Source of the DNA: a virus
Virus record (IMG/VR): IMGVR_UViG_3300010885_014856
Location: 1-22,101 of that record
Reading direction: 5' to 3' (one strand)
DNA: 22,101 nt
The translations under genes and the position numbers were made by a program. Position 1 is the first letter of the stretch. Every line of letters starts with the position of its first letter. Under the pieces are notes generated by a model. It searched no databases and had not been told where the DNA came from. It saw only the letters and a program-made list of their open reading frames with translations. This document shows positions 4,662-21,376 of the stretch, one piece after another.

Positions 4662-5159
4662 ATGGAAAACCTAGACATGGAACTATCAAACGACTTCAAA
4701 GGAAACACCGACCTAGCTAAGCACCTTGCTATTTGCCTAGGCTCGACTGTTCTTTCAAAGTTTATTGCTCACGGATATCACTGGAATGTAAAGGGCATCG
4801 AATTCTCTCAGTTGCACGACTTCTTTGAGGAAATCTACGAAGACTACGACTCAGCAATTGACCCTTTTGCTGAAAATGTTCGCAAGTTAGGTTATGACGC
4901 ACCTTATCTTCTAACCGACTTTGTTGAACTTTCCTCTATCCCAGAGCCAACCAGAATTACTTCCGATGCATCTGCTATGTTGCTTTCACTTTACGAAATC
5001 AACAACGCACTACACGAGTGTATCAAGAAGGCTTTCAACGTTGCTAACAACTGCAACGAGCAGGGCATTGCTAACTTCCTTGCAGAGCGTATCGACATGC
5101 ACCAGAAGTGGGCATGGCAGCTACGTTCTTCTCTAAAGATGGATGCGTCTAGTTTCTAA
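4662..5159 (+). CDS. Dps/ferritin-like protein with intact ferroxidase residues
   Basis: 165 aa, a normal Dps length. Dps proteins form 12-subunit shells that oxidise and store iron using peroxide and so protect DNA. The family core is clear: YHWNVKG (H40), then LH at H52, E56, D67 and E71. The spacing H-12-H-4-E-11-D-4-E is the same as the E. coli Dps ferroxidase set (H51, H63, D67, D78, E82), with Glu in place of the first Asp. The helical pattern continues to the C-terminus. The ATG at 4662 has AGGA five bases upstream; an ATG at 4677 is possible. The stop overlaps the next ATG by 1 nt, so the gene belongs to the portal operon. It could be virion-packaged or act in the infected cell; the sequence does not decide. 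Confidence 0.9.
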   Translation: MENLDMELSNDFKGNTDLAKHLAICLGSTVLSKFIAHGYHWNVKGIEFSQLHDFFEEIYEDYDSAIDPFAENVRKLGYDAPYLLTDFVELSSIPEPTRITSDASAMLLSLYEINNALHECIKKAFNVANNCNEQGIANFLAERIDMHQKWAWQLRSSLKMDASSF

Positions 5160-7012
5160 TGGCTGACTACTTCTCAGAAATAATCAAGTCCGGAAAGGGC
5201 AACGCTAGCCCTGCCCGAGACGCTATTGATTTAATTCCTGAGGAGCAAGACCTAGCTGAGGCACTTCTAGAAATTGCCGACAAGTACGGTAAATTCAACG
5301 AAGACGATACCGGCATCTGGGCTGGATATACTCCAGCTGAAGAAAACGAAGTCGCATCTATTGGCGTCAAGTGTGGCAACTGCGTTCTCTATCGTGGTGG
5401 CTCTAACTGTGCAATCATCTCAGCCGAGGTTGAGTCTGAAGGCAAGTGTCGTTTTGCTGTAATTCCAGATGGCGTAGTTGATGTAAAAGATAAAACAATA
5501 GAGAAGATATTCTCTAAGGCTCCTTACTTAGCTCAGGGCGAACTAAAGCAAAAAGTAAAAGACCTAGAAGACTATGAGGAAAAATATCTAGACATCTCTG
5601 ACTTGATTCCAACTCAGACTAACCTAGACCCAAACAAATTTAAAGATGCCCGCTCAATCACAAAGCCAGTAATTGTTTACAAAGATGCTGATGGGTACAA
5701 GCTAGTAGATGGACATCACAGATGTGCCTCTAAAGCTATCGCAGGTCATACTCAAATTATGGCAAAGGTTTACGGAGGCTCAGTGACAGCAGCAGCATGG
5801 TTCACCTCAACGCTAATAAGTTCAGACGATATGGAACTCGCAACTGACGACCCTTGCTGGGAGGGCTACAAGCAAATTGGTATGAAGATGAAGGACGGTA
5901 AAAAAGTCCCTAACTGTGTGCCAATAAATGCTTCCGCAACCGAGTTTGCCGTGTCTGAAGATTCTTGCCCACCTGCAACTAGAGACATCGTTCTAAACGT
6001 CAACAACAGACAGAACGCCATCGACAACGTTGGCTATGGCCCACTAAACCCTAACGAGCCAAACGACGAGTTCTGGCAAGAAAAAGCTGACCGCTGGAAA
6101 ACAACTTCAGAAGAGTCGAAGAAAAGTATTTGCGGAAACTGCGTTTTCTTTGTGAGAACTCCTAGCATGCTTGACTGCATCGAAGGTGGACTAGCAGAGG
6201 GTGGTTCCGGAGAGCAAAACGCATGGGATGCAATCGATAAAGCTGAACTCGGCTATTGCGAAGCACTTGACTTTAAATGTGCAGCATCTAGAACTTGTAA
6301 CGCATGGGCTGCTGGCGGTCCGATTACAGAAGAAAAAGCCAAAGTCGCATCTGGAGGAGCTGGAGCAATTGCACCAGTTCTGAAACAGGGAGATATCAAG
6401 AAACCTAGCAAAGGACCGGAATTGAAACCCGCTATGTCTAAAACTAAAAAGATTCGTTACTCACGAAACACTGAACTTGCTCTACGTCAGAAACTTGTAG
6501 AGCACAATGCTACAGCAGATATAAACTGCCTAGCTAACCTAGATATGTTCAAGGCAGTGTATCGCCGTGGTGCAGGAGCTTTTGCTGCATCTGGTAGACC
6601 AGACCAAGAACGCCACGACTGGGCAATGTCTCGTGTTGCTGCATTCTCTTACCTGCTACAAGCAGCTGAACCAAAGAATAGCAACTACACTGCTGACAAT
6701 GACCTACTACCACCTACCCACCCAAAATCAGAACTAGCCGCTAAAGGATTTGCTGCTTCAGGCAAAAACTACTATAATGATTTCTTGGCAGTATCCATTC
6801 TTCAAGAAGATGAATACGAATCTCAGGAGCACGCAGTATTCTCACTAGCAGAATTCTCCGGTCTCGGCTACGAAACTATTCCAGCAATTCGTGCTGCTTG
6901 GATTCGTGGAATCAAAAACAACGAAAACCCATTTGAGCGTGCAGCCCTACTTGCATCTGCTCTGTACGACAGCCCAGACGCTGACCTACTTCCTAAGAAA
7001 GGCACTCTATAA
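5159..7012 (+). CDS. Multidomain head-module protein with Cys-rich modules and ParB-like insertion
   Basis: 617 aa, a mosaic of phage-type modules. Residues about 72-105 hold a CGNC module (C72, C75, C84, C97) ending in FAVIPDG. Residues about 135-205 resemble the ParB/sulfiredoxin nuclease fold (KPVIVYKDADGYKLVDGHHR). Residues 233-255 carry the CWEGYKQIGMKMK...PNCVP motif seen in many phage proteins. A second CGNC module follows from C325, with further Cys to about 390. Residues about 434-524 form the domain with YRRGAGAFAASGRP, WAMSRVAAF and DNDLLPPTHP, common in actinophage structural proteins from memory. The C-terminus is helical. The four-Cys modules may hold Fe-S or zinc; beside a Dps gene an iron link is tempting but inferred. 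No overall function can be assigned. Confidence 0.8.
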   Translation: MADYFSEIIKSGKGNASPARDAIDLIPEEQDLAEALLEIADKYGKFNEDDTGIWAGYTPAEENEVASIGVKCGNCVLYRGGSNCAIISAEVESEGKCRFAVIPDGVVDVKDKTIEKIFSKAPYLAQGELKQKVKDLEDYEEKYLDISDLIPTQTNLDPNKFKDARSITKPVIVYKDADGYKLVDGHHRCASKAIAGHTQIMAKVYGGSVTAAAWFTSTLISSDDMELATDDPCWEGYKQIGMKMKDGKKVPNCVPINASATEFAVSEDSCPPATRDIVLNVNNRQNAIDNVGYGPLNPNEPNDEFWQEKADRWKTTSEESKKSICGNCVFFVRTPSMLDCIEGGLAEGGSGEQNAWDAIDKAELGYCEALDFKCAASRTCNAWAAGGPITEEKAKVASGGAGAIAPVLKQGDIKKPSKGPELKPAMSKTKKIRYSRNTELALRQKLVEHNATADINCLANLDMFKAVYRRGAGAFAASGRPDQERHDWAMSRVAAFSYLLQAAEPKNSNYTADNDLLPPTHPKSELAAKGFAASGKNYYNDFLAVSILQEDEYESQEHAVFSLAEFSGLGYETIPAIRAAWIRGIKNNENPFERAALLASALYDSPDADLLPKKGTL

Positions 7013-7013
7013 A

Positions 7014-8132
7014 ATGAGCGAAAACCAACTACTAACCCGTAAAGAACTAATCGAGCTTTTCAACTCTACTAATGAGGCTCTACTTCCAGAACGCCGTCTA
7101 AATGCACAGGACTTGAACACTGTTATCAATCGTGCTTATGCTGCTACATCTGGTAGAAACATTGCTGCTCGTAACTTTGCTATTCGCAAAGAAGTGAACA
7201 ACTACATTGACCTAGCCACTAAGGGCATTGTTGCAAGTGCTGGAACAAATCACTTTGACTTGCTACCTCCACGCCACCCATTCTTCAAGGGCGAGCATGC
7301 TCTAAGTACAGATGAGCTACGCACTCAGCGTGCTAACTGGGTTGCCGCTGACCCAGAGCTTCCAGAGGAACTACGCCCTGTTGTTGCCGCTGCTTATGTA
7401 CACCCAGAGGGCTCTATCGAGCGTGTCCACGCAGAGATTCGTTTGATGGCACTGACATCTGCTGGAAAGATTTCTGACGCAGTATTCAAATACAATACTC
7501 CACTTACTGCTGCTATCTCAGCTGACGAAGAACTTCCAGACCTAACTGAAAGCTACGAGCTAAGCCGTAGTCACTTACTAAACATTGTTGTTCAGCAACA
7601 GTCTCTAACTGCATCTGGTGCCCACCCATTCGATACTGAAGATAACAGACTAGTTCGTATGATTTATCGTGGCGATTCTAGAGACAGAATTGCTCGTGAA
7701 CTTGCTAAGAACGCTGACTACCAGAGCAGTTTTGCTTTGCTAGATGACAGTAGCCTAACTGACCCTTTTACTGCAAGTGCAAGAGCCGAGTTCGCTGCTT
7801 TCCAGGATGCTCTAACTAACCTAGTTGACCCTGAGTTCCCAGTCGACCTTCGTGCAATTGCTGCTAGCGGAATCAAGAAGTATGATGACGAGGCAGACAC
7901 TCTAGAATCTGCAATTCTTGCTGGTGCATCTTCTTCATATGTCGAGAAGTTGCTAGAAAAGAACAACCAGTGGAAGAGTGATTTTGCTGACTGGGAGTCA
8001 AGCGATGTTGTCTCAGAGCCTACTCAGGATATGGCATCTCGCTGGTCTGAGTTTGCTGCTATTTACTGGGCTCTAAAAGACCTTGATGACGAGGACCCTC
8101 GCTTCATTCCACTAAATGAAATCATTTCCTAA
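7014..8132 (+). CDS. Hypothetical structural-module protein
   Basis: 372 aa from the ATG at 7014, two bases after the previous stop. The open frame extends further 5' to 6891, but that part lies inside the preceding gene and has no better start. It is mostly helical and acidic, with no signal peptide or membrane segment. Residues 79-91 (NHFDLLPPRHPFF) resemble the DNDLLPPTHPKS stretch of the preceding protein, suggesting a shared small motif. Several (A/T)ASG/A tripeptides occur (around residues 74, 198, 252 and 283), a linker type repeated across this gene cluster. Its place before the giant protein suggests a virion or assembly role, but I do not recognise the family. Confidence 0.75.
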   Translation: MSENQLLTRKELIELFNSTNEALLPERRLNAQDLNTVINRAYAATSGRNIAARNFAIRKEVNNYIDLATKGIVASAGTNHFDLLPPRHPFFKGEHALSTDELRTQRANWVAADPELPEELRPVVAAAYVHPEGSIERVHAEIRLMALTSAGKISDAVFKYNTPLTAAISADEELPDLTESYELSRSHLLNIVVQQQSLTASGAHPFDTEDNRLVRMIYRGDSRDRIARELAKNADYQSSFALLDDSSLTDPFTASARAEFAAFQDALTNLVDPEFPVDLRAIAASGIKKYDDEADTLESAILAGASSSYVEKLLEKNNQWKSDFADWESSDVVSEPTQDMASRWSEFAAIYWALKDLDDEDPRFIPLNEIIS

Positions 8133-8226: not shown

Positions 8227-11200
8227 ATGTCTGGTTATTTTGACAACCTCTTCAACGGCAACAACGATGACAACCTATCTCCAATAGTTGCCGGCATCGG
8301 ATTTGGTAGCGGTGCTAACAAGGGTTTCTGGGAAATCCAGCCTCGTGTCTTGTTTGGTAGAGACAAAGGTCAGTGGATTGAGATGGGTGCAGAGATTCGC
8401 TCTGCCCTAAAAGTTGCTGGAAAGCTTGTTGGCTTTACTGGTAGAGCAGTTGGTTCAAGTGGTAGTCCAGATAGAGTTCGTGCTCTTGTTCAGGGGATGA
8501 GCCATCTTGGTATTCCTGATGGCATGTATGAACTAGATACCAGACACATTGAGTTGATTGGTGCTACTCTCCCAGACGAGTACCTACGTTCTAAGGGAAT
8601 CGACCCTCAAGCCTCTAGCGACCCTTTTGGCTCTCTTCTAGCTCAGTCAGATATTCCTAACATTGAAGATGTACAAAAAGCAGAAATCACTCCAGATGAC
8701 CTTCGTCTTGCTAATGGTGGTGTAAACACCCCTGAAGGTCAGGAAAACGCAGCCTTCAAAAATACTCCAGCAGGTAAGGCAGCAATTGCTCAGCTCCCAG
8801 ACGAGGCTGCCGCTGAAGCTAAACCTTTTGATATCGTTGATTGGGGCCGTACTAACCCTTACCCTAAGATAGTCTCAGAGCCAAAGTATTTAGAGGGACT
8901 TAAAAATAAAAACATCGCTCCAGATGCAGAGGGCGATGGGGTTGATTTAGGTGAACTAACAAAAGCAATTAGAAAAGGCATACGAAGCAGTTTCTGGTCG
9001 AACAATGAAGACGTTAACGACCACATGGACAGATACAACGACGGCCTTGCAAAAGAACTGACAATAAAAGTAGCAAAGAAGTTAGGCCTAGGCGTCGCTG
9101 GGAGCAAGAATTTTCTAGACTATCTAGCAAAAAACTACGATAAGGACTACTTTAGCGGAATAAATGTAGGTAAATTCTCTACCGATGGTTTAGAAGAGTT
9201 TGATAAACTAGTCGATGACTATGCTGCCAACAACATCGCCCCAGATGCGGAAGGTGCCCCAGACTCTGCAGCAAAAGTTGCTGATAAAGCTATTCAAGAT
9301 GCATTCGACGGAGAAGATGTGTCTGATGTAGATTCTCTACTCGATGATGTATTAAACGATACTCCAGCGTCAGATGACATTTCTGACCTACTAGGTCCAG
9401 AAGTAGATACTTCTGATTTTGACCGCCCTGTAGTTGAAAAGGCTAGTGTTGACGAGGCTGGTATTGAGGTTGATGACTTTGTAAACAATCCAGAGAACGA
9501 TGACCTACTAAAGATTACGGACTTTGCTCCTAGAGACAATGGCGGTACTGATTTTACCGGTATCGACCGCGATGGAGTAGAGCAGAGATTTAGCACTAGA
9601 GCTGGCGACATGCTTCGTCGTGTTATTCACGGTGAGCCAGGCGACACTTCTCTTCAAGACTACCTAGCTACACCTACTGTAGCTCCAGTAAAGCCACTAA
9701 AGCCGTTTGAATTTTTACCTAGACCTGTAACTGTTCCAGACAATGCTATCCCTGCGGAAGATTTCTCAGTTGGAGATAAAGTCTGGAATGCTGACGGTAA
9801 TGAAATTGGAACTGTTAGAAAAGTTCTAGAAAAAGGTTTTGACAACTTTGGAAGAGACTACACTAAGGCTGAAGTTGTCGGCCCTGACGGTAAAGTTTCA
9901 ACCACAAAACTTGGTCACGAGCGTGGCTACAAGAAACTTCCTGCTCCTGAAAAGGCGATTGCTCCAGAGAAGCCAACTATTCCTAACGAGCCTGCTGCAA
10001 TTCCAGAACCTACTCAGGTTGAGTTCCCTACTCCTGATGTAGCACCTGCAAGCCCTCCGGGCCCTCCAAATGGTCCTAACCCTAATGGTGCTCCACCGCC
10101 ACCTGAAGACCTAACTCCTCCAACCAAGAAGGCTGAGTCTCTAGTTGCTGGAGATAAAATCTACAACGCAAATGGAACTTCAGGTACAGTTGATAGCGTT
10201 TCTACCGAAAACGGTAAGGTTACTGTTAACTACACTGACCAGAACGGTGAAGCTAAGAGCAAGAGATTCCTCGAAGGCAACGATGTAAATACCAAGCCTA
10301 CTTCTAATATAGCTCCAGACAGAGAAGCTAATGGAAACCCAATTTCTGATATTCAAAAGCAGACTCTAGAAGACCTAGATGCTATGGATACTGCTGACTC
10401 AATTCAAGATAAAGCCTTAAAGCAGCGTTTAATGGATGCATACAATGCTATGCAGGATGAAGATTTCCAAGATGAGGGCGAAATTCAAGACCTTATTGAT
10501 GAAATCAACGACTACTACCTTGCTAAGAACGGTGGAACTCCTGCTGCAACCCCTACTGCTACCCCTACAGCTCCAGCAGTTCGCCGTGGCGACCACGGTC
10601 GCGACATTGCTCCAACTGAAAAGAGCGATGCTGAACTGTTCAATACAAAGGTTTCTAGGAAAGACGGTGCTCAGGACCCTGATGCTATCCTAAATCAGTT
10701 ATCTGAAGACTATCCAGACGGATTCTTTGTTGATGACCCTAATGATACATTTGACGGTGGCTTTATGACTCATCGTAAAACTATCGATGGCGGCAGAACA
10801 AGATTAGAAGTTATTGTTTCTCGTACCATTGGTAACCAGTTCCAAACTGCATTCCGTTTTACTGACCTAAAGACTGGCGAGCAGAAAACCTTTATCTCCC
10901 ATGACTCTCGTGATTCTTACTCAGCTATTCACGGTAAGAAAAATGGTATTGAAGTAATGACTCGCCACTTCTCTGGTGAGACCAGCCCCGTTAAGGTGGG
11001 TAGCGGAGAACACTCAAGATACTTTGCTATCGGTAAAACATGGCAAGACCGCATGAAGTACTGGCGTGGAAAGTTTGATAAGAGTGCTCGTACTGAGGAC
11101 TCATTGAATGATAAGCAGCGTGCAGAGCTTGAAGAGAAGTACAATGGCAACATTGATGCTATGAATAGGGCTCACACAATTGAAGATATGCGTATGCTTA

Positions 11201-12249
11201 CCCTTGAAGAGAAGTTCGAACTTGCTGCAAACGGTGAAGCTGAAACTCTAAATGAGACTACTGCAGTAGTTCTAGGTAACGTTGAGCGTAGTGCAGTTGA
11301 GTCATTTTATAAAGCTGTTGCCGAAGGTGACACTCAGTCAGCTAAATTAAGATTCCAAGCAATGATGAACCAGCTCCCAGACAATTCTACATCTGGAGGA
11401 GTATTTACTAAAGTGATTCGTCAGGGTCTAAAAGATAGACTTGATGCATCTGGAGTCACCGGCAAACAGCGTACTAAAGCTCTACAACAGCTATCTGCAA
11501 CAGTAACTAACTACATCCTACACGCTAACAAGCAGTGGTCTACTGACAACGAAATCAAACTACCTCACGTTTCTGGTGGCGGTATGTTAGTTGTCAAGGA
11601 AGGTGCAAAGGTAGAATTTAGCGATAATAGACGTACAAAAGAATACCCATCTGGACGTAAAATTATTGGTAGAGTAGTTGGACTTCGCCCTAGCAGCAAT
11701 GGTAGAGGTTATAACGACTTTGTTAGACTTCAATTCCTTGGAGAAGATGGCAAACTACATACCTCTGATGCTGACTTAGCCGCTACTCATATGAAGTTAG
11801 TCGATGATAACACTCCACTAACTAGCTATGATGGCTGGGACCGTCTCGGCGACCTAACATTCTCTCGTCTAGGTCAAGAAGCTACTGATAAGCGTAAAGC
11901 TGCTCGTCTGAAGAAGGGTATGTCTTGGAAGGACCCGAGCGACCCTAACTACAACCCTAATAAGGTTGACTTGGCATATCTGGGCAGTGATGGCGTACCT
12001 CAGGGAGAAGACCCTAATACCCCATCTGTAAACCCTAGCGGAGTAACTAAGCAAGCAGCAGACCTTCTTTCTGGAGACACTATCTATGACACTAATGGAA
12101 ACCCTCTAGGTACAGTTGTAAAGACCAAGATTACTTCTAAAAATGGTCAGCCAATTGTTGCAGTTATGTACAAGGATGTCGATGGCAATGTTCAAAAGAT
12201 TGCTTACCACCCTGACCAAGAGATTGGCCCTGACGCCCCAAAAGCGTAG
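8227..12249 (+). CDS. Giant modular virion protein, short (unshifted) product
   Basis: 1340 aa, start ATG behind AGAAGGA. The N-terminal 120 residues form a compact domain (GKGQWIEMG-like core: DKGQWIEMGAEIR). Linkers NIAPDAEG at 229 and 336, and relatives at 694 (NIAPDREA) and 793 (DIAPTEK), divide the chain. Four SH3/KOW-like beta modules, three beginning with a Val/Ala/Ser-Gly-Asp-x-(Val/Ile) and an 'xGT-V' turn, lie near 513-575, 639-685, 1120-1190 and 1280-1335. Residues 590-630 are Pro-rich. A mixed domain (about 810-930) and a helical region (about 935-1110) complete it. No enzyme motif was seen. It is probably structural or tail/head-associated, by size and location. Its stop TAG at 12247 lies one codon after the slippery heptamer CCCAAAA, so it is probably also the N-terminal part of a 2944-aa fusion. 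Confidence 0.85.
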   Translation: MSGYFDNLFNGNNDDNLSPIVAGIGFGSGANKGFWEIQPRVLFGRDKGQWIEMGAEIRSALKVAGKLVGFTGRAVGSSGSPDRVRALVQGMSHLGIPDGMYELDTRHIELIGATLPDEYLRSKGIDPQASSDPFGSLLAQSDIPNIEDVQKAEITPDDLRLANGGVNTPEGQENAAFKNTPAGKAAIAQLPDEAAAEAKPFDIVDWGRTNPYPKIVSEPKYLEGLKNKNIAPDAEGDGVDLGELTKAIRKGIRSSFWSNNEDVNDHMDRYNDGLAKELTIKVAKKLGLGVAGSKNFLDYLAKNYDKDYFSGINVGKFSTDGLEEFDKLVDDYAANNIAPDAEGAPDSAAKVADKAIQDAFDGEDVSDVDSLLDDVLNDTPASDDISDLLGPEVDTSDFDRPVVEKASVDEAGIEVDDFVNNPENDDLLKITDFAPRDNGGTDFTGIDRDGVEQRFSTRAGDMLRRVIHGEPGDTSLQDYLATPTVAPVKPLKPFEFLPRPVTVPDNAIPAEDFSVGDKVWNADGNEIGTVRKVLEKGFDNFGRDYTKAEVVGPDGKVSTTKLGHERGYKKLPAPEKAIAPEKPTIPNEPAAIPEPTQVEFPTPDVAPASPPGPPNGPNPNGAPPPPEDLTPPTKKAESLVAGDKIYNANGTSGTVDSVSTENGKVTVNYTDQNGEAKSKRFLEGNDVNTKPTSNIAPDREANGNPISDIQKQTLEDLDAMDTADSIQDKALKQRLMDAYNAMQDEDFQDEGEIQDLIDEINDYYLAKNGGTPAATPTATPTAPAVRRGDHGRDIAPTEKSDAELFNTKVSRKDGAQDPDAILNQLSEDYPDGFFVDDPNDTFDGGFMTHRKTIDGGRTRLEVIVSRTIGNQFQTAFRFTDLKTGEQKTFISHDSRDSYSAIHGKKNGIEVMTRHFSGETSPVKVGSGEHSRYFAIGKTWQDRMKYWRGKFDKSARTEDSLNDKQRAELEEKYNGNIDAMNRAHTIEDMRMLTLEEKFELAANGEAETLNETTAVVLGNVERSAVESFYKAVAEGDTQSAKLRFQAMMNQLPDNSTSGGVFTKVIRQGLKDRLDASGVTGKQRTKALQQLSATVTNYILHANKQWSTDNEIKLPHVSGGGMLVVKEGAKVEFSDNRRTKEYPSGRKIIGRVVGLRPSSNGRGYNDFVRLQFLGEDGKLHTSDADLAATHMKLVDDNTPLTSYDGWDRLGDLTFSRLGQEATDKRKAARLKKGMSWKDPSDPNYNPNKVDLAYLGSDGVPQGEDPNTPSVNPSGVTKQAADLLSGDTIYDTNGNPLGTVVKTKITSKNGQPIVAVMYKDVDGNVQKIAYHPDQEIGPDAPKA

Positions 12250-12303
12250 AAGGTAACCCCCCATCCGGGAACATTGAGCCGGATGCAGAGGGGTTACCGG
12301 ATG
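12237..12303 (+). promoter_or_regulatory. -1 programmed ribosomal frameshift signal (slippery heptamer plus stem-loop)
   Basis: In the upstream frame the codons read GCC CCA AAA GCG TAG. The heptamer C CCA AAA (12237-12243) fits X-XXY-YYZ exactly, so both tRNAs can re-pair as CCC AAA in the -1 frame. After an 8-nt spacer (12244-12251), GGTAACCCC (12252-12260) pairs perfectly with GGGGTTACC (12290-12298). Inside it CATCCGG (12262-12268) pairs perfectly with CCGGATG (12279-12285), leaving a 10-nt loop. A second CCGGATG at 12297-12303 could compete for the same partner. There is no U-tract, so it is not an intrinsic terminator. The downstream frame opens only at 12234, so the shift must occur within 12234-12246, where the heptamer lies. 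Confidence 0.9.
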
Positions 12304-15300
12304 CTCCTAGGAATCAATCTCTAGACATTGATTTGTCTGACATTGATTTTGATGACGAGTCAACTAGTGATGACTTAACGGACGCTCCGTCTACCCTAAA
12401 CCCTAAGCAAGAATTAGACCACACTCTAACTAAAGTTGCTAATGCAGCAGATGGTGGTGTTGGTGCTAAAGAACTGAGCTCAGCGATTGATGACCAGCTT
12501 CTAGCATCCATCACTGGACCTGAAGCTGAGCGTGTTTCTAAACTAGAGCTAAAGGCACTTACTGCTAGAAATCACCTAGAAGATGCCCTAAGTGATGAAC
12601 CTCAGGACCCTGTTGCAGTAGCAGCAGCTAAGAAACTTTATACTGATGCTCTACAAAATCAGCTAGATTTCCACGACTATCTTGCTCAGTCGTATGCTAC
12701 ATTCCTAACATCTGATTTCCAAAATAAGCTGACTAACGAGCCACTGCTATCTAGTGATGAAATTGCAAAACTAAATAACAATATTCGTCCAGCAGACATG
12801 GCCGGCCGTTTTGTATCTCCAGACCAAGTAACTGCTGCTAGAAATGCAATAGATGAGGCTACTGGTAAAGACAACCCTGGTGAAGACTTCTTCCGTACTC
12901 CTGCGAGACTACAGCAGCATAATGAAGCAGTTAGAAAAGCTGCATCAGAACTATCTCTACCGGATGGCTGGGACGTAGTCTTTGATGATGAAAATGCTTT
13001 AGCTGAAATTGCTAAGATTCCGGGCCGCCTTGAGAGACAAGCTGCCTACAAAGGTTATGCGTTAAACTCTAGACCACGCCACCTAGTTATCAAGCACAGA
13101 GACCCAGCTCTAAACAAGCACAACCTGATGTTTGAGCTAGACCCTAATGACTCGTCTATGATGGCTACCCCTGATGAAGTAAATACTCTTCTAAACGCAC
13201 TCACTGAGTTCCACAGCAAGATAGATATTTCTAACTTGCAAAATATTTTAGCTGGTAGCTACATAAGCACTTTCAACCCTACCGGTGCTATTGACATCAA
13301 ACTTGGAAGACATGCACCACTACGCTCAGGGGATATTGGAGTTGACTCAGTTTCTAAAGCTGTCATAAATGCGGCAACAGGCACTAATGGTCAGCTGTAC
13401 ATAAATATTGACAGAATGCGACTATTCGACACTCCTGAGTTTAGAAAAGAAAAAGAAGGTTTCTACTGGAATGAGAATAAGAGTAGTTTAGAAAAGATAA
13501 AAACCACTCTTCACCATGAGCTCGGCCATCAAATTCAATATGCAACTACTGACACTAAAAATCCTGAAAAAATTAAGGGTGAAGCTGAGCATGCTGGCGA
13601 AGATGGCGAAGTTAATAATACATATGCTGTCGTATCTAATGGTGAACACTTTGCTGAATCTGTCGGCCGCTACATCTCTACAGGTGAAGCAACAGACCGC
13701 GTCAAGGGCATTCTTGAAAGCAACGGCCTAATCAAATCTACTGAGCCAGAACAGCTTGCTGCAGCTGAAGGTGCTCCAGAACCATTTGCAGGTGCAACAA
13801 CTGTTGCTCAGGTACAGGGTGTTTTAAAGAAAGCTGGCACATATCTAAGCACTGTGTCTAATGGAAAATATTACCGTAGTACTGGAGTGTATGCTGTCGC
13901 TTCTGACCGTAATGGCGGAAACTCTTACAAAGAGGTTAGAAAAAAGTATAAGAAATCTAGGGGTCAGGGGGTCTACTGGGATACAGTAAGAGAGCCTATT
14001 AGAGAAGCTGTTATTGTAGGCTATAACGAAAATGCCGCAACTGAAAGTCCCGAGTATGCTGCAGAAAGATTAATTAGAAATAATAGAGCCGTAGATAAAG
14101 CCGTAGAAGCTTTAAGGTTAGCTGGATTTACGGCTACCCGTATGGAAGGTGAAGAGTACAAATTCCTCGTAACTAAAAAAGTTGCTGCCCCTACCCCTGA
14201 TGCTGAAGGTGCTCCTAGCTCCCTAGACAACCTAGGTATAGACTTCCAGTCAGCAACTATGGATGCAAGCGGAACTCGTCTACCAACTCCGGGTGCCTTC
14301 ACTGGTGAATTCCAGAATATTATGAAGGGTGCTAAGAGCTGGAAAGATGTTCAAGAGCGTCTAAAAGATAAGACAATAACTTATTTTGACTTCGAGACTA
14401 CAGGTATCTCAGATTACGATGGCCAAGATATTACCAATGACTCTGTTCAGCTCGGTGCAGTGCAGGTTAGAAATGGAAAAATTGTAAAGCGTTTCAACGT
14501 CTACACAAACCCTGAAAGCAAACTCTCTGAATGGTCAGCAAAGAACCTAGGTCGCGATGTTCTAGATGAGAATGGCAACAGAATTTTGGATGAGAATGGT
14601 AAACCAAAAACCACTCCAGTAACTCCAGAGTGGCTTGCTCAGCAAAAGAGTAAGAATGACGCTATTAGAGAGTTTATGGAGTTCATCGGTCCTAATGCTC
14701 TCTTGGGTGGACAGAACGTTCCATTTGACATTGAGATTCTAAAGCGTATGGCAGCAGATGCTGGCGTAGAGCTAGACATTGCTGGAACTATTGACTCTAA
14801 GGACCTTGCCTCACTTCTACCTAAGTATGACCCCGAGAAAGGCACTGACGGTCCTAAGGCACCAGACCGCAAGACTGGTGAAATCAAGGCTACATCTAGC
14901 CTCGGTCCTGTTGCAAACTTCCTAGGCTTTGAGCCTGCAAACTGGCACTCAGCTGATGGAGATGCTGAAGATTCTTATAACCTAGTTTCTAAGATTATTG
15001 ACCGTGCTGCTGCCGAGGATAACCAAGACCTGAGCCTTCTAGACTTCCCTGCAATGAAAAAGCGTTATGAAGAACGCATGGCTGAGTTCAAGAATGTTGT
15101 TTCACCTAACAACCCTATAACTGAAAACCAGCAAAAAGCACTAGAAGAATTCTCTAATTCAAATAATCCAGAAATATCTAAACTTGCTAAAGATACTCTT
15201 GCTACTGCGACTACTCGTGGAGATGCTGCTAAAGCTCTAGCCGAGCTTCACAGTCTTCAGCCGGAGAATATCGCCCCTGATGCCGAAGGCACCCCGGAGT

Positions 15301-17060
15301 CAATTAAGCCTGCTAGAAATGAAGCTTTAGATATTGACCTTTCAGACTTTGACTTTGATGATGACGGTGAGCTAGAGCCTAACGAGATTAAAGCAGCGGC
15401 TAAGGCTATAGCTGCATCTGGCCATGGTATGAAACTAGATGGTAGAAAATCTGATTCTGAACGAGCAATAGATACAAAAGGTACAAAAATATCTATAGCT
15501 GATTCAACTAGGACTGCTCAGGCTCCGTCTCAGCAGGCTACTGATGTGAAGAACAGCATCATCGAACTTGGCTCTAAGGTTAGAGAAGCTGCTGAAAAGA
15601 AAGCCGAAGCTAAACTAAGAAAAGAACTAGACATTCCAGATGACGCTGATGTCAAAGAATTTATATCTAATAAAATTAGAGAAATAGAGCATGAAAATCA
15701 GCGTATAGATACTGAAATTATGAACTCTAGAGGTCAACTGCAAGCTATGCTATTTTCTGAAATAGAAAAAGAAGCTGCAACTATCACTGAAGAAGACCTA
15801 AAAGCCTATCTGCGAGAAGCAAGACATTACGATGAAGGAATCTCAGAAGAAGAGATTGCTCAGGCTACTTTAGATAACAATTACAGACCTAAAATTGGAA
15901 GATGGGGAATTCCTTACAATATTTCTCCTGATAGCAAGTCTGGTGCGTCATTTGATACAGGTAATGCAATTAGTTATAATTTTGGCAACTCATATTTAAA
16001 TACTAAAACTACAAACAGAATAAGACTTGCAGCCGTAAGGTTGGCTGAAAAGTCTAAAAATTCTGACTACCCTGAAATACAAAAATTAGCAGAGGAAGCT
16101 AAGGCTAAAGCCGATATTCAAGCTAAGAATAGAGAAAAACTTGTCGATATTAAAGAAAAAAGAACTTTTGCTTCTAGAGATGCTCTAGTTGAGACGCTTA
16201 AAGAAAACGGAGTAGAGTTTGACTCGGTTGATATGTCGCAATATATTGGTAAGTGGGAGCCAAGATTGCGTAGATATTCTGAAAACTCTAAACTAAGTAA
16301 GAAAACCAGAGCTGAAATAGAAAAAGCTTTCCAATATATTCCTAAAGACTTCCTACTTGCTGCAATTAGTTACTTGAAGACTACTAGAGATGCTAGTAGC
16401 AATCCATACGCACATATGGGTAGAATTAGAATCATTGAGTCTGGTGCCCGTGCTCACTACTATAGTGATGGTGGAAATGGTGGAGTCATTCGTGGAGATG
16501 ACCACGGTGATTTTGTTCACGAATTCTGGCACTTCTTCCAGCAAATCAACCCAGACATCGGTGCTTTAGAGCATGCTTTTACCTACGATAGAATTAAAGA
16601 CCAAAATGGCAATCTACCGTCAGTGGAATCTAAAGACTGGAGCTTTGTATTTAATGGCGGAAATTTTGTAAGTAGCTATACATCGAAGCAATACCCTAGA
16701 GGTGGTGTTGGAGACTTTAGTCCATCCAATAGGTCTACCGAGGTAGGAAGTACTGGAATGGAAGACTTATTTACTAGTCCTGGAAGGTACTCCACTCCTG
16801 GAGGCGGCTGGTGGGCAGATGCTCCAACTCTAATTGTAGGAAGTGGAAGAAATAGAAGTTCCTATAGAAACCCTCACATGGATATTGCTACTGGTATTTG
16901 GTATACTGATTCTTCTATGGCCACAAAAATTCCGGGACAAGATTTACCTAACCAAAAAACCTATCTAAAAGGAAGACTAGATAGTCTAGGTGAAGATACT
17001 GAATTTAGGAACTTTAACATTGGTATGCTTCTGTCCATGCTGGATTGGAATAGTAAATGA
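12243..17060 (+). CDS. Frameshift-only extension of the giant protein: two metallopeptidase-like domains and a DEDDh exonuclease
   Basis: About 1605 residues added by a -1 shift. The only nearby candidate start, TTG at 12333, has no ribosome site, and sequence before it (NIEPDAEG...RNQSLDID) is homologous to an internal linker. Numbering from 12333: HELGH at 395-399 with E442 in HFAES looks like a gluzincin peptidase. Residues about 680-905 form a DnaQ-type 3'-5' exonuclease with all motifs: DFETTG (D686, E688), NVPFD (N795, D799) and HSADGDA (H872, D877). Linkers PDAEG recur at 622 and 979. A charged helical region spans about 1040-1260. A second peptidase-like site is HEFWH at 1396-1400 with E1477 in STGMEDLF. 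Targets are unknown. The stop overlaps the next ATG (ATGA). Confidence 0.85.
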   Translation, partial: SVEGNPPSGNIEPDAEGLPDAPRNQSLDIDLSDIDFDDESTSDDLTDAPSTLNPKQELDHTLTKVANAADGGVGAKELSSAIDDQLLASITGPEAERVSKLELKALTARNHLEDALSDEPQDPVAVAAAKKLYTDALQNQLDFHDYLAQSYATFLTSDFQNKLTNEPLLSSDEIAKLNNNIRPADMAGRFVSPDQVTAARNAIDEATGKDNPGEDFFRTPARLQQHNEAVRKAASELSLPDGWDVVFDDENALAEIAKIPGRLERQAAYKGYALNSRPRHLVIKHRDPALNKHNLMFELDPNDSSMMATPDEVNTLLNALTEFHSKIDISNLQNILAGSYISTFNPTGAIDIKLGRHAPLRSGDIGVDSVSKAVINAATGTNGQLYINIDRMRLFDTPEFRKEKEGFYWNENKSSLEKIKTTLHHELGHQIQYATTDTKNPEKIKGEAEHAGEDGEVNNTYAVVSNGEHFAESVGRYISTGEATDRVKGILESNGLIKSTEPEQLAAAEGAPEPFAGATTVAQVQGVLKKAGTYLSTVSNGKYYRSTGVYAVASDRNGGNSYKEVRKKYKKSRGQGVYWDTVREPIREAVIVGYNENAATESPEYAAERLIRNNRAVDKAVEALRLAGFTATRMEGEEYKFLVTKKVAAPTPDAEGAPSSLDNLGIDFQSATMDASGTRLPTPGAFTGEFQNIMKGAKSWKDVQERLKDKTITYFDFETTGISDYDGQDITNDSVQLGAVQVRNGKIVKRFNVYTNPESKLSEWSAKNLGRDVLDENGNRILDENGKPKTTPVTPEWLAQQKSKNDAIREFMEFIGPNALLGGQNVPFDIEILKRMAADAGVELDIAGTIDSKDLASLLPKYDPEKGTDGPKAPDRKTGEIKATSSLGPVANFLGFEPANWHSADGDAEDSYNLVSKIIDRAAAEDNQDLSLLDFPAMKKRYEERMAEFKNVVSPNNPITENQQKALEEFSNSNNPEISKLAKDTLATATTRGDAAKALAELHSLQPENIAPDAEGTPESIKPARNEALDIDLSDFDFDDDGELEPNEIKAAAKAIAASGHGMKLDGRKSDSERAIDTKGTKISIADSTRTAQAPSQQATDVKNSIIELGSKVREAAEKKAEAKLRKELDIPDDADVKEFISNKIREIEHENQRIDTEIMNSRGQLQAMLFSEIEKEAATITEEDLKAYLREARHYDEGISEEEIAQATLDNNYRPKIGRWGIPYNISPDSKSGASFDTGNAISYNFGNSYLNTKTTNRIRLAAVRLAEKSKNSDYPEIQKLAEEAKAKADIQAKNREKLVDIKEKRTFASRDALVETLKENGVEFDSVDMSQYIGKWEPRLRRYSENSKLSKKTRAEIEKAFQYIPKDFLLAAISYLKTTRDASSNPYAHMGRIRIIESGARAHYYSDGGNGGVIRGDDHGDFVHEFWHFFQQINPDIGALEHAFTYDRIKDQNGNLPSVESKDWSFVFNGGNFVSSYTSKQYPRGGVGDFSPSNRSTEVGSTGMEDLFTSPGRYSTPGGGWWADAPTLIVGSGRNRSSYRNPHMDIATGIWYTDSSMATKIPGQDLPNQKTYLKGRLDSLGEDTEFRNFNIGMLLSMLDWNSK

Positions 17061-18115: not shown

Positions 18116-21100
18116 ATGACCGATTTCGTTGGTCGCGATGGTTTCCTTGCTGTATTCAGCAACGCAACCGACGCTGTAATCATTGACACTAACCTAAACT
18201 TAGTTGTTGGCCTCGGTAAATCCGATGTAGTCCTGCCTAGCCGCGACTGGGAGCCTACCAACGAAACATTTAGCGACTCTACTCTAGAGCTTGCTACTGG
18301 TGCACTAACCACCCTTGATATCAAGGTTATTACTGCTTCTGGCCGTATGTACACTATTCCTGCTGGCGTTGTGTCTGAGGCCAAGAAATCTCTTGAATGG
18401 CACAAGGAGCACCACCGAGGTGGAACTCCTGTTGGTCTAAACACTGCTCGCACTCTTGCTCGTGGTGGTCAGATTGGCATTGAGAAGGTCCGCCACATTG
18501 CAAAATACTTCCCTCGCCACGAAGTAGACAAAAAGGGTAAAGGCTGGCAGCCTGGGCAAGATGGCTTCCCGAGCAACGGAAGAATCGCGTGGGCCCTGTG
18601 GGGCGGAGACTCCGCTCGTCGTTGGGCTAGTGCAATTGTTGAGCGTGAGAATAAGAAGGCTACCACTGCTAGCGGATATGCCATCAATGGTTATGATGCC
18701 GACTCCGAAATTTACAAAACTCCTGAAAGCTACGAATCTAACGTAGATGCTTTCAAAGATGCTTTTGAGCTAGGCGAAGGTGTTGCACCTGAGTTCATGG
18801 CTCGTGTTCGCCTAGATGGTTCTGGTATGGACCGCCTATACAAACTAGACACTGATGGTCAGGTTTATGTGTGGGACGATATGGGCTGGGATTCTCTTGG
18901 CCACGTTGATGGCGATGTTTGGACTTACGACAAAGCTCTAGATGACCCTTACGATTCTTGCGAAAAAGACCACACCATTATTGACCCTGAGTCAGCAATG
19001 ATTATGTCTGCTCTACTTCAGGAAAGTCCTTTTGGCATTGTTTCAATCAATGATATTGACCCTGAAGAAGCGGAACTTTTTGAGGACGCTGCTCCTCAGG
19101 AAGACTGGGATTTCCTAAAGAGCATTACTGCTGCTATGCCACCTGCTGCTGCTCAGCAAAAGGGACCTTCAGGTGCAGTTGCTAAAGACTCTGTCTATTC
19201 TCCTAAAGAGCGTTCTATCAATGCTAAGAGTCAGACCCGTGATGCTGGCGGTATGTTTGTTGCTAAGGGTAGCCGTGTAGTTGTTGGAAACGATGGCGAA
19301 AATGGTCGTGGTCAGGTTACTGGTCTGAACCCTGCTACTGGTGCGACCACGGTTGAGCTGGATAATGGTAAAACCATTGAAGTTCCTGCAAAGCTTACTC
19401 AAAAAGAAGATAAGTTTGCTCAGGCGGCGGCTCCTGTAGCTCCTGCAAATGTGCCTACTGCTGAAGAACTATCAGAGCCTCTAGATGTTTCTGGTGTTCT
19501 TGGTGAGCCTCGTTCTCCAATCAATCAGGCTGCTGCTAAACTTCCAGGTACTTTACCTCCAATGAATCAGGGTGCACTTCAAGATGTTCTACAGAACTGG
19601 GGAGGTTTTGTTGAATCTCAGCGTGCCGCTTTCAAGCCAATCACAGACCAGCAAGCTAAAGACTACGCAAAAAGGACTGGCCAAACTGCTATCCCAAATC
19701 CAGCACAGCTAGACCCAAATACAACTAAAAATGCTGGAGCTGCTAGCAAGCAAGTTGCTGTCCCGGGCGAGAACGGACAGATTTCTGTTCAAGATGCTCC
19801 TATGATGGCTGGTCGTGCTGGATTTAAAAAAGATACCCAAGATGACTCTGGTAAAGATGATGGCAAAGATAAACTTAGGGAACAACTTCAAGGTATCAAA
19901 GACCGAACTACTTACCACAACAAAATATTTACCCCATCTGAAAAAACAGCAGCCCCTGCCAAGCCAGCTCCTAGCTCAAGTAAGGGAACTCCAGGAAATG
20001 GCTCTGGACGTGGCGGTGCTAAGCCAGCTCCAAGCAAGGGACAGCCTGGTGCATGGAGCACTTCTCCTACCAAACCAACGCCATCTAAAGGTCAACCAGG
20101 GGCGTGGGACACAGGCAAGAATGGTACAGGCAGACCTAACGTAAAATCAGAGCCAGGTGCTTGGGATACAGGTAAAAATGGTACAGGACGTACTGGACCT
20201 GCTGCCCCTACTAGCCCATATGACTCTAAGGGTCGCTATGTAGTACAAAAAGGCGATAGCCTCTGGAGTATTGCTGAGAAGACTACCCCTAAAGGTAAAT
20301 CTGTAGGCGAGCACTGGCGAGACATTATGAAGTCAAACCCTAATATGAAGAGCGGTGACCCTAACAAGATTTTCTCTGGTGAACGTGTTTGGATTCCAGG
20401 TCAAGGTAAGCCTAAGCCTGTTACTCAGGTTCCTTACAAGCCGGGTGCAAAAGTCCCAGCTCAGAAGCCAAACTTCCTAGACAAAGTAAATGAAATTCGC
20501 AAGTCTAACAAGCCAGCTCCAAGCAAGGGTCAGCCGGGCGCTTGGGACACAGGTAAAAACGGAACTGGTAGAACAGGACCGGTACAACCTAAGGGCAATC
20601 CTGGAGCGTGGAGTACATCTCCTACAAAGCCGACAAAGCCAGTTGCACCGTCTGGAAAAGGCTCTGGAAGTGCTGGTACAAAACCAGGTACAGGCAGTAA
20701 AGGTCAACCGGGAGCTTGGAGTACTTCTCCTACCAAACCAACGCCATCTAAAGGTCAGCCGGGCGCTTGGGATACAGGTAAAAACGGAACTGGTAGAACT
20801 GGAAAAGCTGCTCCTACTGGAATGTATGACTCAAAGGGTCGTTATGTTGTCCAGAAGGGCGACAGTCTGTGGTCTATCGCTGATAAGACAAAGCCTGAAG
20901 GAACCTCTACTGCTAAGCACTGGACTGATGTAATGAAGTCCAACAAGGGCAATATCAAGAGTGGTAACCCTAGCCTTATCTACTCTGGCGAACGTCTAAA
21001 TATTCCTAACAAGCCTAAGCCTGGCCCAGACAAGTCTAAGGCTGGAGCTTGGGATACTGGAAAGAATGGTACAGGACGTACAGGGCCAGTACAGCCTAAG

Positions 21101-21376
21101 GGCAACCCTGGTGCTTGGAGCACATCTCCTACTAGACCAGCAGCTCCAACTAAACCAACTAGACCGGTACCTAAACCTGCTGCACCTAAGCCAACTGGAA
21201 AACCGGGAGCTTGGGATACTGGAAAGAATGGTACAGGTAAACCGAGTGCTACTACATCTGAACCTAAATACAAGCCAGTTGGCGATAACAAAATTGCTGC
21301 ACATGCAAGAGCTGGTCTAGATGCAATTATAAAGCCTAAAGGTAGTGCTGGTGCTAGAAAACGTAAGTCTAACTAA
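18116..21376 (+). CDS. Large repeat-rich protein with two LysM domains, probable virion or cell-wall-binding protein
   Basis: 1086 aa, start ATG after AGGA. Residues about 79-182 form a domain I know from actinophage structural proteins: IPAGVVSEAKKSLEW, RGGTPVG, YFPRHEVDKKGKGW and GRIAWALWGGD. Residues about 380-427 are an SH3-like barrel (FVAKGSRVVVGNDG). From about 610 onward it is Pro/Gly/Lys/Thr-rich with six AWDTGKNGTG and four AWSTSPT repeats. Two LysM domains are embedded, near 706-762 and 908-964 (YVVQKGDSLWSIAEK and YVVQKGDSLWSIADK). LysM binds the N-acetylglucosamine of peptidoglycan, so wall binding is the expected role. There is no lytic motif. It could be a tail or head decoration or a baseplate-like protein. 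Confidence 0.85.
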   Translation: MTDFVGRDGFLAVFSNATDAVIIDTNLNLVVGLGKSDVVLPSRDWEPTNETFSDSTLELATGALTTLDIKVITASGRMYTIPAGVVSEAKKSLEWHKEHHRGGTPVGLNTARTLARGGQIGIEKVRHIAKYFPRHEVDKKGKGWQPGQDGFPSNGRIAWALWGGDSARRWASAIVERENKKATTASGYAINGYDADSEIYKTPESYESNVDAFKDAFELGEGVAPEFMARVRLDGSGMDRLYKLDTDGQVYVWDDMGWDSLGHVDGDVWTYDKALDDPYDSCEKDHTIIDPESAMIMSALLQESPFGIVSINDIDPEEAELFEDAAPQEDWDFLKSITAAMPPAAAQQKGPSGAVAKDSVYSPKERSINAKSQTRDAGGMFVAKGSRVVVGNDGENGRGQVTGLNPATGATTVELDNGKTIEVPAKLTQKEDKFAQAAAPVAPANVPTAEELSEPLDVSGVLGEPRSPINQAAAKLPGTLPPMNQGALQDVLQNWGGFVESQRAAFKPITDQQAKDYAKRTGQTAIPNPAQLDPNTTKNAGAASKQVAVPGENGQISVQDAPMMAGRAGFKKDTQDDSGKDDGKDKLREQLQGIKDRTTYHNKIFTPSEKTAAPAKPAPSSSKGTPGNGSGRGGAKPAPSKGQPGAWSTSPTKPTPSKGQPGAWDTGKNGTGRPNVKSEPGAWDTGKNGTGRTGPAAPTSPYDSKGRYVVQKGDSLWSIAEKTTPKGKSVGEHWRDIMKSNPNMKSGDPNKIFSGERVWIPGQGKPKPVTQVPYKPGAKVPAQKPNFLDKVNEIRKSNKPAPSKGQPGAWDTGKNGTGRTGPVQPKGNPGAWSTSPTKPTKPVAPSGKGSGSAGTKPGTGSKGQPGAWSTSPTKPTPSKGQPGAWDTGKNGTGRTGKAAPTGMYDSKGRYVVQKGDSLWSIADKTKPEGTSTAKHWTDVMKSNKGNIKSGNPSLIYSGERLNIPNKPKPGPDKSKAGAWDTGKNGTGRTGPVQPKGNPGAWSTSPTRPAAPTKPTRPVPKPAAPKPTGKPGAWDTGKNGTGKPSATTSEPKYKPVGDNKIAAHARAGLDAIIKPKGSAGARKRKSN
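20033..21241 (+). repeat. Degenerate coding repeat with ten Gly-Ala-Trp units around two LysM domains
   Basis: Ten copies of a unit based on SKGQPGAW occur. Six continue as DTGKNGTG and four as STSPT(K/R)P. They separate and flank the LysM domains. The copies differ at many third codon positions, so the repeats are kept by selection on the protein rather than being a recent DNA expansion. They make several long out-of-frame open stretches in this interval, which are artefacts of the repeat. Confidence 0.8.

Follow-up and report, generated by a model that had tools for sequence, protein, structure and literature searches.

A probable −1 ribosomal frameshift ahead of a metallopeptidase module in polyvalent-type giant proteins of phages

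Ribosomal frameshifting of the −1 type is well known in phages, where the conserved cases are mainly tail chaperones together with a few shell proteins. The −1 frameshift in the tail assembly chaperones (lambda G-GT) was reportedly described by Xu, Hendrix and Duda in 2004. Like lambda G-GT, the locus discussed here carries an XXXYYYZ heptamer near the end of a first ORF, a second ORF in the −1 frame and, as we propose, two products in a fixed ratio. Unlike lambda G-GT, the gene is located between the portal and capsid-protease genes and does not adjoin the tape measure gene, and the shift adds 1605 aa (an addition that is usually enzymatic) in place of a small chaperone domain. Tail chaperones are recognised by two small ORFs that precede the tape measure gene; the present frames are 1340 and 1605 aa long. 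Among 2476 joined frameshift genes from SEA-PHAGES, 2397 are tail chaperones and 79 are hypotheticals (PMC10885494). Frameshifts in the capsid and tail-shaft genes of T7 (10A/10B), T3, A2, PSA and Privateer generate minor, C-terminally extended isoforms (PMC5009743, PMC7881722). The product proposed here would likewise be a minor form, extended at its C terminus, from a phage structural gene; those frameshifts, however, add small or Ig-like domains to abundant shell or tail proteins, whereas in the present case a giant protein would gain an enzyme module.

Two further systems are relevant. The first is retroviral Gag-Pro-Pol, to which the likeness is one of logic only: the assembly part is encoded in frame 0, and the peptidase and other enzymes are reached only through the frameshift. 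Gag-Pol keeps the peptidase attached to the part that is packaged by Gag (discussed in PMC5009743). The two systems are not homologous, and on the phage side, where packaging and processing are putative, the peptidase is of the zincin type. The second comprises the phage polyvalent proteins (Iyer et al. 2017, PMC5512222), which share with the present locus a giant multidomain protein, a zincin metallopeptidase (MPTase), ArdC-N, a ParB-like neighbour and a portal neighbourhood. Polyvalent proteins are thought to be packaged and injected. Their MPTase, recognised by Iyer et al. from a relationship to lethal factor, has been proposed as the enzyme that processes them, whether ahead of packaging, inside the capsid or once they have left it; cleavage precedes packaging in P1 DdrB, and N4 vRNAP enters the capsid intact (PMC5512222). 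In contrast to the proteins described there, the MPTase module here lies behind a −1 shift, and frameshifting is not mentioned in that paper. A search of the open-licence literature found no description of a conserved frameshift ahead of the peptidase in a polyvalent-type giant protein, in agreement with a preliminary description of this DNA, whose author knew of no such giant-protein frameshift.

The window, that is, the whole stretch of DNA analysed, is a 22,101-nt (22.1-kb) virus record, IMGVR_UViG_3300010885_014856 (positions 1 to 22,101). Its portal shares 74% identity with the portal of Actinomycetia phage DSL-LC01 and 59-66% with those of several Microbacterium phages, including Pumpernickel and Zooman; by inference, the host is an actinobacterium. 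The genes run from terminase and portal through a small DNA-binding-like protein and two mid-size proteins to ORF A and ORF B, which are followed by two small genes and a large capsid-protease-like protein, the N-terminal half of which is homologous to a DSL-LC01 gene annotated as capsid maturation protease. Hence, the A/B pair sits between the portal and the capsid-protease-like gene. The latter protein (1086 aa, 18116-21376) carries two LysM repeats behind its capsid-protease-like half. A 617-aa protein at 5159-7012 shows a weak ParB-like match, and relative to its homologue at L007:4122-5951 the order of its segments is permuted (214-404, then 25-205, then 391-617), which suggests domain shuffling.

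The features of A and B in the window all lie on the plus strand. ORF A (8227-12249) encodes a 1340-aa zero-frame product that ends in Pro-Lys-Ala followed by TAG (12247-12249). The slippery heptamer C-CCA-AAA (12237-12243) is in phase with frame A and separated from the stop by one codon, GCG. Nucleotides 12234 to 17060 are open in the −1 frame, so that the overlap contains the heptamer; counted from CCC, ORF B (12237-17060) has 1607 codons and adds 1605 aa after Pro-Lys, giving a fusion of 1339 + 1605 = 2944 aa. An 8-nt spacer, GCGTAGAA, leads to a putative stimulatory stem-loop (12252-12298) in which the outer 9-bp stem, GGTAACCCC (12252-12260) with GGGGTTACC (12290-12298), encloses a 7-bp stem, CATCCGG (12262-12268) with CCGGATG (12279-12285). 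Both pairs are exact reverse complements. Folding of 12237-12320 gives −34.4 kcal/mol (z = −4.06; 0/200 shuffles were as good), and an Rfam search returned no match. In frame B, the first ATG or GTG lies 548 nt past the A stop and the first TTG at 12333. The preliminary description had named the in-phase CCCAAAA one codon ahead of TAG, the 8-nt spacer with its nested perfect stems, the opening of the downstream frame at 12234, the lack of a nearby ATG or GTG and a product of about 2944 aa from frames of 1340 and 1605 aa, and all of these hold on re-examination.

It had also proposed a comparison of relatives for the heptamer and stem. Loci with a readable syntenic giant gene were gathered by a portal-based scan of viral contigs, followed by scans with one A relative, a neighbour gene and two other portals, and frameshifting loci were picked by scanning for slippery heptamers at −1 overlaps. 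Single-protein queries with A or B against viral_contigs gave no direct relatives, which were reached through the portal and neighbour-gene searches; a profile search with the A core failed because it has too few conserved stretches, and a portal search of bacterial genomes found nothing. Three heptamer-scan hits (L131, L144 and L154) were judged to be ordinary gene overlaps, having a start at the junction or close to it, and were left out; L066, whose layout is the same as that of L067, was counted with it as one locus. The same arrangement, with B always in the −1 frame, is present in 27 distinct viral contigs (window included), all of them metagenomic. No cultured phage with the A core was found, and beyond short domain matches, searches of phage records gave no direct relatives of A or B.

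At every one of the 27 junctions the heptamer is in phase, being CCCAAAA in 16 loci and AAAAAAA in 11, and the A stop follows 0 or 3 nt past it (TAG in 18, TAA in nine, TGA never). The loci were themselves collected by a heptamer scan, but two observations do not depend on that choice: neither heptamer is found in phase at the remaining 30,528 codon positions in the 27 A ORFs, and homologous genes found regardless of the motif, those of L007 and L032 among them, have their junction at the same residue. The stems vary in sequence among loci and yet recur, with a single exception (L123, where no perfect stem was found). They begin mostly 4-9 nt past the heptamer in the other loci (11-12 nt in L010, L192 and L194), and several are short (5-6 bp). 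Folds of 45 nt taken from 5 nt beyond the heptamer rank, as the median, in the lowest 0.5% of windows from the same gene; the Fisher combined p is ~1e-24 (23 loci, with related loci treated as independent), and some folds, e.g., those of L051, L067, L074 and L082, are not significant against shuffles. Compensatory base-pair changes number two between the window and L007, its closest relative, and one within the L050 group. Three features expected of a −1 frameshift site were thus found in the sequences: an in-phase X-XXY-YYZ motif within the overlap, downstream structure, and conservation of the site together with coding in the new frame. The reading put forward in the preliminary description gains from the recurrence of heptamer, frame and stem in 26 further contigs at high divergence, and we consider it highly probable that A and B are joined by −1 programmed ribosomal frameshifting at this site. 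In L194, the A gene is broken near 5607-5649 (ORFs 4915-5649 and 5607-7763; a single ORF in L192 and L193), either by an assembly error or by a further frameshift.

What, then, are the proteins so joined? The preliminary description gave no identity for the giant protein beyond setting it apart from tail chaperones, a view in keeping with its gene neighbours and with the lack of a PHROGs match. ORF A of the window has no Pfam, PHROGs or NCBIfam match. It begins with a "header" domain (8275-8778) that an iterative HMM search finds in proteins of 104 loci, including those of cultured Microbacterium phages and DSL-LC01; it lies at or near the N terminus, and in most of these loci the carrier is the giant protein. 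A conserved C-terminal core follows, and the last domain (12040-12234), which ends just ahead of the heptamer, is modelled by AlphaFold2 as an EF-P/eIF5A-N-like KOW/SH3 barrel (pLDDT ~80-90; VIA Z 9.0, rmsd 1.8 over 60 residues). With Foldseek alone, neither this model nor that of the zincin discussed below had a significant match; VIA gave matches for both. From its position and the header domain, we infer that A is an assembly protein. A second header-bearing protein is found upstream of the portal at L186:3085-5730, L190:987-4931, L198:3239-5008 and L058:1-1359, which fits a targeting or packaging header common to both proteins. Between domains of the fusion lie five exact copies of a PDAEG linker, in most cases as N-I-A-PDAEG (at A residues 232 and 339 and B residues 15, 654 and 1014), and eight other window proteins have none; they may be domain joints or processing sites, and a role as general processing sites was rejected, as they are not conserved in relatives.

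ORF B of the window contains a zincin-like metallopeptidase module (12867-13736, with HELGH at 13515-13529), identified by alignment, profiles and modelling. In the aligned module (alignment A5), H427, E428, H431, Y463, E470 and A473 are invariant, profiles match PDB zincins, and the model matches M34-type peptidases (lethal factor, Z 11.1; Pro-Pro endopeptidases, ~9). It has no Pfam MPTase-PolyVal match and is placed by profile and fold. Downstream is a DEDD/RNase_T-type exonuclease domain (14334-15101; Pfam PF00929, E 2.5e-10; NCBIfam PolC-type, E 1.6e-10), a module that is 77% identical in L082, and a motif search marks a second HExxH (HEFWH) at 16518-16532. In L051, L081 and L035, B matches ArdC-N and MPTase-PolyVal (E 1e-37 to 1e-49, each with two matched stretches). 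The added length is 265-980 aa in the other loci with a complete B. The A-B fusion is a polyvalent-type protein: very large and multidomain, with a zincin MPTase and other conflict domains, and encoded among portal and head genes.

The purpose of the shift is less certain than the shift itself. By a logic like that of Gag-Pro-Pol, the frameshift may set the share of these polyvalent-type proteins that carries the peptidase; we judge the chances for and against such a dosing role to be about evenly balanced. The frameshift could instead serve to keep a toxic or costly effector module rare, in favour of which the variety of B modules (exonuclease, ArdC-N/MPTase, unknown domains) and the lack of HExxH in L063 and L221 speak; we hold this to be rather unlikely, since the zincin is the one element that is nearly always there, in the fused relatives discussed below as well. 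HExxH is present in B of 23 of the 27 loci, i.e., in 22 of the 24 complete B frames and in L007, which is truncated; B is cut by the contig end in L057 and L082. The two complete frames without the motif belong to the sisters L063 (8386-9183) and L221 (15831-16628), and the peptidase is therefore not obligatory. The L063 B shares 72% identity with the B of L093 over the first ~250 aa of the latter, which runs on into a zincin.

Turning back to the frameshift itself, B might be a gene in its own right, read by ribosomes that reinitiate or that enter at a start of its own past the A stop, and in various loci an ATG, GTG or TTG does lie 44-390 nt past that stop. Codons of the B frame are, however, under selection ahead of any such start. 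Between L050 and L070, differences from the heptamer to the first ATG or GTG fall 12/3/47 at codon positions 1/2/3, and 2/0/9 when TTG and CTG are also counted as starts; the bias is clear in close pairs and weaker in more diverged ones. This excess at third positions ahead of the first possible start indicates that the B frame is translated from the slip site. Moreover, the first ATG or GTG of B lies tens to hundreds of codons in, at a place that is not conserved, the window and L007 align from the first B residue on (~52% identity), and a separate gene would leave the heptamer unexplained; we regard it as very improbable. Slippage of RNA polymerase on a homopolymer, giving a mixed mRNA population, is conceivable at the A7 of 11 loci. 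The other 16, the window included, have C3A4, which is too short for known transcriptional slippage, and a stem a few nucleotides downstream points to ribosomes; we give this explanation equally little weight. Even less probable is an indel in the C4A4 run that split one gene, which would be in keeping with the continuous giant ORF of DSL-LC01 and several relatives; random indels would produce both frames and no motif, and sequencing error is ruled out by the conservation of the same −1 junction, motif and adjacent TAA or TAG in 27 contigs of differing sequence.

Relatives without the frameshift do exist. The C-terminal ~570 aa of A are homologous in 18 other frameshifting and 10 fused relatives (in L035, L081, L051 and L057, which also frameshift, A lacks a core match and has the header domain). 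The 10 fused relatives have a single open frame across the junction and no slippery site, and fused relatives carry a terminal HExxH. Where their junction aligns, it is mostly Pro-Lys, encoded by CCT-AAA or CCT-AAG (L014, L033, L053, L071 and L095), synonyms that break the heptamer; in L060 it is Pro-Asn. The preliminary description had counted uninterrupted relatives without a slippery site as evidence against the frameshift. They are indeed found, and the frameshift reading nevertheless stands because they are interleaved with frameshifting loci on the A-core tree and mostly keep Pro-Lys at the aligned junction. On this unrooted tree, at least five changes between the CCCAAAA and fused states are needed, and the AAAAAAA sites form one clade; each change may be a gain or a loss of the site.

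In the mechanism that we propose, ribosomes translating A would meet C-CCA-AAA, followed 8 nt later by a stable stem. The majority would stop one codon on and release A, a polyvalent-type core among the head genes that consists of the N-terminal header, the conserved core and the KOW/SH3 barrel up to the slip site. On the Pro and Lys codons, a fraction would move one base back and continue through B to give the 2944-aa fusion. In this way the frameshift would fix the ratio of A to A-B, with A alone presumably the major product, and B would supply the M34-like zincin and, in this phage, the exonuclease. Through their shared A part, both products may enter the capsid, packaging and injection being suggested by analogy with polyvalent proteins, and the peptidase may then process the protein once it has been assembled or injected. 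The frameshift might exist, as in Gag-Pol, to limit the dose of the peptidase while tethering it to the packaged part. In its broadest form the proposal is tentative, and we put it at slightly short of an even chance: these would be a lineage of DNA phages with Gag-Pro-Pol logic, in which a −1 frameshift at a single Pro-Lys junction, with five or more gains or losses behind it, determines the share of virion-packaged giant proteins that carry an autoprocessing metallopeptidase and effector cargo.

Automatic annotation is likely to split such proteins into two unrelated "hypothetical" genes. If the proposal is true, recoding would have a new role in phages, that of controlling access to a peptidase module, and the arrangement would represent an independent convergence on that of Gag-Pro-Pol. 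It would also suggest how phages dose their polyvalent peptidases.
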